DNA of 64,000 bases. Origin: Sulfuriflexus mobilis. GTDB lineage: Bacteria; Pseudomonadota; Gammaproteobacteria; AKS1. This document shows, piece after piece, positions 12,038 through 44,028 of this stretch. The notes under the pieces were generated by a model. It did not search any database, was not told the DNA's origin, and was given only the letters and a program-made list of their open reading frames with translations. Location of the stretch: NCBI RefSeq assembly GCF_003967195.1, contig NZ_AP018725.1, positions 1,426,001-1,490,000 on the forward strand, given 5' to 3'. Every line of letters begins with the position of its first letter. Position 1 is the stretch's first letter. Both the position numbers and the translations under genes were made by a program.

Positions 12038-12106
12038 GACTAACGATTAAGTTGCGGGGCGCAAGCGCGAAAGCGCGCAGCGTCCAACACGAACGCCGTA
12101 TTATGC
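12038..12106 (-). other. attC-like integron recombination site
   Basis: On the minus strand a GCATAAT box (R''-type, one base off GCATAAC) is followed by ACGGCGTTCGTGTTGGAC, a GC-rich self-pairing centre (GCTGCGCGC, TTTC loop, GCGCTTGCGC), then GCAACTTAATC and a GTTAGTC box (R'). The 69-base size and arm layout match chromosomal-integron attC sites. A second R''-like box, TCCTAAC, lies at 12131-12137 just past the stop of the preceding gene. Confidence 0.65.
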
Positions 12107-42485: not shown

Positions 42486-42836
42486 ATGCTCTACTTTGTA
42501 ACATCAACGATCGTCGGAATAGCTCTGGCATTTGTGATCTTTGCAATGGCTTTTAATGGGAATACTAACTTTGCGGTTCCTTTGCTAGCCGAGGGAATAT
42601 TGATTAGCGCCATAACAGCACTAAGTGGTGATCGTAATAAACACTCTACATTGACAATATGTACTCCTGCGATATTGATGTGTTTACTTTTTGGCGGCCT
42701 CCTATCAATAGGTGGCAGCAATCCCTTAAATCGGGAATGGCTGTGGCTAGCTGCCGCTATTTTCATGGTGTGGCTAATTGCAAGTTTCATCGGTAGTAGA
42801 GTAAGAAATGTTTTAACTATATTGTTAGCCAAATAG
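42486..42836 (+). CDS. small multi-pass membrane protein, 116 aa
   Basis: This 116-residue hydrophobic protein has four likely transmembrane helices (about residues 4-24, 30-46, 59-76 and 86-105). A short polar loop, SGDRNKHSTL, divides the pairs. It has no recognised family. Upstream, GCATAAC (near 42434) and CTGTTAGTAGG (near 42468) resemble cassette-edge boxes. The stop is followed 12 bases later by an ACCTAAC box (42852-42858), the left half of an attC, so it is a typical single-gene cassette. Confidence 0.6.
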   Translation: MLYFVTSTIVGIALAFVIFAMAFNGNTNFAVPLLAEGILISAITALSGDRNKHSTLTICTPAILMCLLFGGLLSIGGSNPLNREWLWLAAAIFMVWLIASFIGSRVRNVLTILLAK

Positions 42837-42851
42837 TTTATTTGAATATCT

Positions 42852-42901
42852 ACCTAACAATGCACTCGTTCTGACGTTCACTGCGCCATGCCGCACAGCG
42901 T
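42852..42901 (+). other. left half of an attC site, interrupted
   Basis: ACCTAAC (42852-42858) runs on as AATGCACTCGTTCTGACG and a GC-rich partial palindrome (TGCGCC...GCACAGCG), as in attC left halves. The expected right half is displaced about 200 bases to GTTAGGC at 43094-43100. Between them lie cassette repeat copy 9 and a REP hairpin. Confidence 0.55.
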
Positions 42902-42910
42902 GTTCGTTTC

Positions 42911-42973
42911 TGAGTGACCGCTTCTGGCCGATCGGCGACATAACTAGGCAAGAATCGGCTAGAATGAAATGAA
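42911..42973 (+). repeat. cassette repeat, copy 9 (truncated by REP hairpin)
   Basis: TGAGTGACCGCTTCTGGCC, ATCGGCGACATAACTAGGC and AAGAATCGGCTAGAATGAAA match the family in the same orientation relative to its genes as in block 1. The second arm is replaced by the GGGGTCAGAG hairpin, as in copy 1. Confidence 0.85.
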
Positions 42974-43037
42974 TAATTGGGGTCAGAGCACAGTTTTCTC
43001 TAATATAAGCAACAACTGTGCTCTGACCCCATTTATT
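42971..43037. repeat. REP hairpin, copy A
   Basis: GGGGTCAGAGCACAGTT (42979-42995) pairs perfectly with AACTGTGCTCTGACCCC (43014-43030) around an 18-base loop. The 52-base core is identical to copy B at 43955-44006, and the flanking GAATAA/TTATT bases are shared. This is typical of REP elements moved by RAYT transposases, none of which is present here. Confidence 0.9.
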
Positions 43038-43111
43038 GATTAACGGACCTAAAAGGCCTAAAGCAAATGGTCGTTTTAAGCCCTCTAATTATAGTTAGGC
43101 GTAAAAAATAA

Positions 43112-43459
43112 ATGGCCCACAAAAAATTAATAATAAAGTATATATCCTGTATTTATTTGGTTCTTCTTTCTATGTGGCAGGGGTTCTTAGCTTGGGGCAC
43201 GAACCAATTTCTTATAATGTTTGAATCATTCGGTAAAGAAAACCTTACTACAGAAATACTATCATACTCCCAACCTCTAATTTGGGGGTTCATGCTCTCA
43301 ACATTATTTCTCTGTTATGACATTTACAAAAGAAAAAATGTACTCGTACTAAATACAGTAGTAATAGTTTTCACCATTACTATTGCAACAATTTTAATTC
43401 AATTCCATGTCTTTGTTGGTTCCTACATGACAACCTTTGAAATAGGTGAAGTAAAATGA
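43112..43459 (+). CDS. three-TM membrane protein, 115 aa
   Basis: This 115-residue protein begins MAHKKLIIKYISC and has three transmembrane helices (about residues 10-28, 52-68 and 77-98) and a short tail. It lies between a GTTAGGC box (43094-43100), 12 bases before its start, and the attC at 43467-43553, which begins eight bases after its stop, so both cassette edges are in place. The family is unknown. A fragment of a paralogue (MTNKKLLIIKYIACL) occurs 790 bases downstream at 43903. The gene is AT-rich. Confidence 0.68.
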   Translation: MAHKKLIIKYISCIYLVLLSMWQGFLAWGTNQFLIMFESFGKENLTTEILSYSQPLIWGFMLSTLFLCYDIYKRKNVLVLNTVVIVFTITIATILIQFHVFVGSYMTTFEIGEVK

Positions 43460-43466
43460 AAATTTC

Positions 43467-43553
43467 GCCTAACAACGAAATTAACATGGACAAAATACAG
43501 TACTGCTTGTTCCTCGCAAAACTGTATTTTTCCAGTTATTAAAAACGTTATGC
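43467..43553 (+). other. attC integron recombination site
   Basis: R'' GCCTAAC (43467-43473) and R' GTTATGC (43547-43553) bracket a hairpin whose arms GGACAAAATACAGT and ACTGTATTTTTCC pair with one unpaired C. Such an extrahelical base is what integrases use to choose the strand of attC. Total length is 87 bases. The start codon of the next gene lies inside the R' box. Confidence 0.85.
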
Positions 43554-43906
43554 ATAAAATTATTTTATTCTCCGCCCTTATAACATCTATATCCGCACTT
43601 GGCTGGGGACAAGAATTCTCCGATGATTTTAATAATCTACAAACTGACGCATCCAGAGACAAATCAGCCCTCTACAATAAATGTAAGGCTGAAATAAATC
43701 GAAAGCATTTTAGAGTGGAATTTGATAAGTGCATTAATAAGTGGGAATCAAATAATAAGCTTCACACAAATAAAAGAGCCTTGGCTGAAAAACATAGAGA
43801 GGAACTTCTAAACCAGGTCACTATCTGTAAACATCGAGCTATAAAAGCGGTCGAACAATCCAGGGAGGGTAAAAATACATACTTGCATTGCGAGATATAT
43901 AAATGA
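43550..43906 (+). CDS. exported protein of unknown function, 118 aa
   Basis: This 118-residue protein has a signal peptide (MHKIILFSALITSISALGWG, cleaved before QEFSDD). The mature part is hydrophilic, charged and helical, with four cysteines (NKCKAE, FDKCINKW, TICKHR, LHCEIYK) at spacings suggesting two disulfides, somewhat like the C-x-x-x-C type small periplasmic proteins. Its ATG overlaps the R' box of the preceding attC (GTTATGC), so the cassette edge encodes the first codon. The stop TGA overlaps the ATG of a truncated gene. The family is not recognised. Confidence 0.65.
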   Translation: MHKIILFSALITSISALGWGQEFSDDFNNLQTDASRDKSALYNKCKAEINRKHFRVEFDKCINKWESNNKLHTNKRALAEKHREELLNQVTICKHRAIKAVEQSREGKNTYLHCEIYK

Positions 43907-44028
43907 CTAACAAAAAACTATTAATAATAAAATATATCGCCTGTTTGAATAAGTGGGGTCAGAGCACAGTTTTCTCTAATATAAGCAACAACTGTGCTCT
44001 GACCCCATTTATTCAGTCATTAACGTAG
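43903..44028 (+). pseudogene. paralogue of the 43112 gene truncated by a REP hairpin
   Basis: An ATG overlapping the previous stop (ATGA) opens MTNKKLLIIKYIACL, closely matching the start of the 43112-43459 protein (MAHKKLIIKYISC), also at the DNA level. After 15 codons the similarity stops exactly where the GAATAA...GGGGTCAG element (43947) begins. The frame reads through the hairpin and stops at 44026-44028 after 41 codons. It looks like a membrane-protein gene disrupted by insertion of, or recombination at, the REP. Confidence 0.7.
43947..44014. repeat. REP hairpin, copy B (identical to copy A)
   Basis: The 52-base hairpin core at 43955-44006 is identical to that at 42979-43030. The element includes GAATAA at its left edge and TTATTC at its right, so its outer ends are also inverted. 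It abuts the truncated paralogue. Confidence 0.9.

Follow-up and report, generated by a model that had tools for sequence, protein, structure and literature searches.

An attC site with the apparent start codon of the next gene in its R' box, within a decayed cassette cluster of Sulfuriflexus mobilis

The attC sites of integrons are bounded by two mutually pairing boxes, R'' (consensus RYYYAAC) and R' (consensus GTTRRRY), which enclose an L''/L' stem and a variable loop. The G and T bulges of the folded bottom strand are the extrahelical bases typical of attC, and the site is positioned just after the gene of its cassette. Clusters of attC sites that lack an integron-integrase are termed CALINs. 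Strand exchange by the integrase IntI takes place on the bottom strand, between bases 1 and 2 of R' (PMC12901181). In the compact cassettes of the Vibrio superintegron, open reading frames (ORFs) overlap attC (PMC11014356). A review of class 1 integrons puts the share of cassettes without proper initiation signals at about 20%; ORF-11 in attI1, or short ORFs within an attC, can provide for their translation by termination-reinitiation (PMC8876359). Position effects have been measured for aadB, a cassette poor in Shine-Dalgarno sequence (PMC8024014). The dependence of cassettes without a Shine-Dalgarno sequence on the upstream sequence and on position is already described (PMC8876359, PMC8024014).

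We have analysed a stretch of 64,000 nucleotides of the S. mobilis genome, hereafter the window, in which an attC site occupies positions 43467-43553 of the forward strand. The boxes R'' (GCCTAAC, 43467-43473) and R' (GTTATGC, 43547-43553), with an imperfect inverted repeat between them, pair at six of seven positions, the single mismatch being due to T in place of R at base 5 of R'. The bottom strand, the folding of which had been proposed as a check in the initial annotation of the locus, folds at -16.2 kcal/mol (z = -3.9), and none of 200 dinucleotide shuffles was as stable. The stem had been described as having one unpaired base; it actually carries two single-base bulges, a G and a T on the 3' arm, and a 2x2 internal loop. 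The site thus shares with integron attC sites the R''/R' boxes, the L''/L' stem, the extrahelical G and T of the bottom strand, the variable loop (here a long one) and the position just after a cassette gene. It differs in being AT-rich (34% GC) and in the T at base 5 with its mismatched pair, a variant that is common in the sites that we collected.

Cassette arrays adjoining integron integrases (TIGR02249) in other genomes were the source of the attC sites for two covariance models, R1, made from an alignment of 25 short sites, and R2, in which R1 was enlarged with 143 matches. With filters off, both models match 43467-43553 end to end in the 64 kb of the window (R1, 15.0 bits, E = 0.23; R2, 19.0 bits, E = 0.017); rejection by a covariance search, which had been named beforehand as an outcome that would dispose of the site, did not occur. 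The site was missed under the default speed filters, and a scan against Rfam gave no match. The single-site score is modest (E of 0.017 to 0.23 per 64 kb), for which the context and sister sites compensate. The sequence aligns column by column, from end to end, with attC sites of 87 nt in three other genomes, and a DNA search found a sister site at 184,060-184,136 in the same genome, 75% identical over 84 nt, which sits among other attC sites within a cassette array. Because of this alignment and this sister we conclude that 43467-43553 is a genuine attC, as first annotated. A further match in the DNA search, 72% identical, is a site in another genus, and this 87-nt type of attC is recurrent. 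The exact pattern GCCTAAC..GTTATGC was found at two other places, with an allowed gap smaller than the 73-nt spacer of 43467-43553.

The site belongs to a cassette cluster that lies after sppA. In a genome of the same genus (L091) maf directly follows sppA, and in the window it is found about 12.8 kb further on; the stretch between the two genes is therefore extra DNA. It includes, on the forward strand, a cassette-like ORF for a hydrophobic protein of 116 amino acids (42486-42836), with no assigned family. The attC remnant of this gene (42852-42911) is matched by R2 at 25.4 bits (E = 0.00043). Its R' end has decayed (GTTTCT) and is replaced by a MITE-like repeat (GACCGCT..TGGCCGATCGGCGACATA...AGGCAAGAATCGGCTAGAATGAAATGA) at 42915-42972, which also occurs in cassette clusters at L070 1677-1724 and 3512-3569. 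A palindromic repeat, GGGGTCAGAGCACAG...CTGTGCTCTGACCCC, then occupies 42970-43040 (more narrowly, 42979-43030); the window holds a second copy at 43946-44015 (more narrowly, 43955-44006), and others are located at L010 4466-4517, at L076 1430-1497 and 3747-3813, and in L029. Several copies of this palindrome adjoin attC sites, and the one at L076 1430-1497 seems to lie inside an attC loop.

An attI-like site ending in GTTAGGC is positioned at 43045-43103 (forward strand). It has TCTAATTATAGTT and a good deal more in common with the site adjoining intI no. 2 of the genome and with two further copies. Copies of this sequence are listed at L073 1068-1135 and, on the reverse strand, at L071 2220-2274 and L011 15904-15959, in addition to that in the window; besides its occurrence next to intI no. 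2, it is found at a minimum of three places that lack an integrase, as though attI together with cassettes had been copied, or had been left behind without the integrase. Downstream of the attI-like site is the first cassette gene (43112-43459, forward strand), the owner of attC 43467-43553, which encodes a hydrophobic protein of 115 amino acids with no family and for which no relatives were found. It is followed by the gene of interest (43550-43906, forward strand), for a predicted exported protein of 118 amino acids. This gene overlaps by ATGA a truncated ORF on the same strand (43903-44028), the start of which, MTNKKLLIIKYIAC, is like the MAHKKLIIKYISC of the 115-residue protein, and into which the second palindromic repeat runs.

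Two integron integrases are encoded in the 3.1-Mb genome, at 0.237 and 2.300 Mb, each more than 0.8 Mb from the cluster. About 30 attC matches (E of 0.1 or less) fall in about 15 separate places, mostly far from both integrase genes. These scattered matches span 179.6-2668.8 kb of the contig and include another in the window, at 12038-12106 on the reverse strand; attC sites are also present in two of three genomes of the same genus. At the locus itself two attC sites, 42852-42911 with its decayed R' and 43467-43553, lie close together without intI, which is the minimum number for a CALIN. The locus amounts to a small cassette cluster, decayed and without an integrase, which is CALIN-like in that its attC sites are far from any intI, and which has an attI-like site. 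A CALIN differs from it in lacking the attI-like sequence before one cassette gene and the repeats beside or within attC sites.

Bases 4-6 of the R' box are an ATG (43550-43552) and, in agreement with the initial annotation, this codon opens a frame of 118 codons beginning MHKIILFSALITSISALGWGQ... It is the sole ATG, GTG or TTG of the frame before codon 55, and none occurs in frame upstream, back to the stop at 43457. The frame stayed open in three of 20,000 dinucleotide shuffles; region-wise, with all six frames allowed, 29 of 2000 shuffles contained an open run of 117 codons or more. The frame is likely, though not certain, to be coding. A hydrophobic stretch (residues 4-16) directly after MHK resembles, by eye and by hydropathy, a secretory signal peptide, again as annotated, and its placement right behind the ATG argues for this codon as the start. 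No Shine-Dalgarno sequence is visible upstream of 43550, where the sequence is CCAGTTATTAAAAACGTT, and with none at the usual distance the gene falls among the TIR-deficient cassettes. Searches of 37 + 369 genomes, genome contigs, viral contigs and plasmids gave no relatives of the protein. Pfam gave no match, the predicted structure (mean pLDDT 51.6) is not interpretable and a promoter scan gave fewer matches than in shuffles. We also considered concealment of the start codon in an attC hairpin of the mRNA. The probability that the AUG is unpaired varies from 0.4 to 0.9 with the stretch folded, which does not support the idea.

It is conceivable that the attC is real and the ATG at 43550 unused, with the 118-codon frame either untranslated or started at a non-standard upstream codon. 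The lack of a Shine-Dalgarno sequence would suit this, as would the 30 open codons between the stop at 43457 and the ATG, a protein without relatives and the decay of the cluster. We nevertheless judge it unlikely, in view of how seldom shuffled sequence keeps the frame open, of the signal-peptide-like stretch right behind the ATG and of the want of any usual in-frame start upstream.

Our preferred explanation, which we hold as a whole to be highly probable, is that of a decayed CALIN-like cluster in which the R' ATG is used through compaction, initiation occurs without a Shine-Dalgarno sequence and the cassette is truncated. The cluster after sppA would comprise the attI-like site, the 115-residue cassette together with the 87-nt attC that belongs to it, and a second cassette of which the 5' portion is left. 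GTTATGC, a common form of R', would be present in this attC by chance, and the compactness of cassettes would have led the 118-codon gene to adopt the ATG that it offers. Ribosomes may reach the ATG by direct initiation on an A/T-rich leader or by termination-reinitiation, in the latter case from the 115-codon gene and then from an 18-codon ORF within the attC. The downstream attC would have been lost in the present copy.

Since IntI acts between bases 1 and 2 of R', a cassette starting at the R' box of 43467-43553 has only TT before the ATG. The initial annotation had the start codon travelling at the edge of the cassette, and to this extent the geometry bears it out. The travelling itself is overstated: the R1 and R2 searches of the window detected no attC downstream of the 118-codon gene on the forward strand, and the gene is not a complete cassette with its own attC on the 3' side. 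Since no attC comes after it, and it runs into the truncated gene and the palindromic repeat, it is not an intact cassette; it is the front part of one, and the present copy is probably immobile. The missing attC might instead be too decayed for the model. An overlap of coding sequence with the recombination site is shared with the cassettes of the Vibrio superintegron; the difference is that here it is the beginning of one gene that coincides with part of the attC of the gene before. The case illustrates the extent of cassette compaction, in that as little as 2 nt may separate the cassette boundary from the start of a gene.

How often an R' box offers an ATG was surveyed in 303 attC sites, the S. 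mobilis genome included; these were found by the model itself, and the arrays are those of integrase-bearing genomes. Fifty of the sites (16.5%) have GTTATG as R'. From base 4 of R', the frame runs open for 60 codons or more in nine of the 50 GTTATG sites (18%) and in 56 of 252 others (22%), and a preference of the R' ATG for an open frame is not supported (Fisher p = 0.58). A further in-frame ATG follows within 3-8 codons in seven of the nine. The R' ATG therefore opens a long frame in about 3% of attC sites (9/303), and about 0.7% (2/303) appear to need it as a start; this is the base rate against which 43467-43553 is to be seen. Apart from the gene at 43550, the only such case is a gene in the same genome, at 482 kb (L072 8414-8905), which starts with the ATG in the R' box GTTATGG of an attC (L072 8319-8417) and encodes a signal-peptide-like protein of 163 amino acids, MVHSYYKSCITVLAILFALCADA...

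These figures bear on the reading that a start codon in R' is selected, the 5' untranslated region coming from whichever cassette lies upstream and expression being set by array position; the last two points had been proposed in the initial annotation. The presence of only two cassette-side bases before the ATG, and of a second signal-peptide gene starting in an R' box of the same genome, would fit such an arrangement. We regard it as very improbable, however, given the frequencies of open frames, the nearby alternative ATG codons in seven of the nine open-frame GTTATG sites and the absence of an attC belonging to this copy of the gene. The frame is open no more often at GTTATG sites than at others, and the R' ATG is therefore not a selected start codon; there is no dedicated arrangement. 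A start in the R' box looks like an occasional by-product, to be expected where this R' variant is common and cassettes are compact, and not like a new mechanism. The earlier reading was right at the level of the sequence and over-interpreted the mechanism.

A more specific form of our preferred explanation is translational coupling. An ORF of 18 codons (MDKIQYCLFLAKLYFSSY) inside the attC, at 43486-43542 on the forward strand, would carry ribosomes through the hairpin and release them 7 nt before the R' ATG, in a manner that may be likened to ORF-11 of attI1 and to the attC-borne ORFs of class 1 integrons. The position and spacing of the ORF are in keeping with this, and the principle has been reviewed (PMC8876359). 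The ATGGAYAAA start of the ORF is kept at the same place in the 184-kb sister and in the site of another genus (L095), and the ORF of the sister ends directly before the ATG of the next gene. Conservation of ATGGAYAAA may, however, only mirror a conserved L'' box, and the 18-codon ORF itself is preceded by no Shine-Dalgarno sequence. Moreover, 51 of 242 sites have an ORF that spans the attC, where shuffles would predict 42, so that a general enrichment of such small ORFs is not supported. Coupling through this ORF fits known termination-reinitiation and is possible, not established; we would put it at well below an even chance, though ahead of the alternatives above. The likeness to the TIR-deficient class 1 cassettes, with their ORF-11/ORF-17 coupling, consists of the missing Shine-Dalgarno sequence and a short ORF that stops just before the start. 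Unlike theirs, the short ORF here is part of the preceding cassette's attC, and the coupling is putative, deduced from the position of the ORF.

If coupling were shown, the attC would take an active part in the translation of cassettes, as well as hindering it. One may go further and suppose that this type of attC carries, in this lineage, a small ORF of its own (ATGGAYAAA..., present in three AT-rich sites), which traverses the hairpin and passes ribosomes on to the following start codon, even one within R', making the recombination site a portable module for translation initiation; we think this improbable. An attC-spanning ORF is present too in L072 8319-8417, where it stops just after the start of the gene. 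In the window, the stop codon of the 115-codon gene is in frame with the 118-codon gene, and no further stop interrupts this frame within the intervening attC (43457-43552), so that one stop codon alone parts the two proteins.
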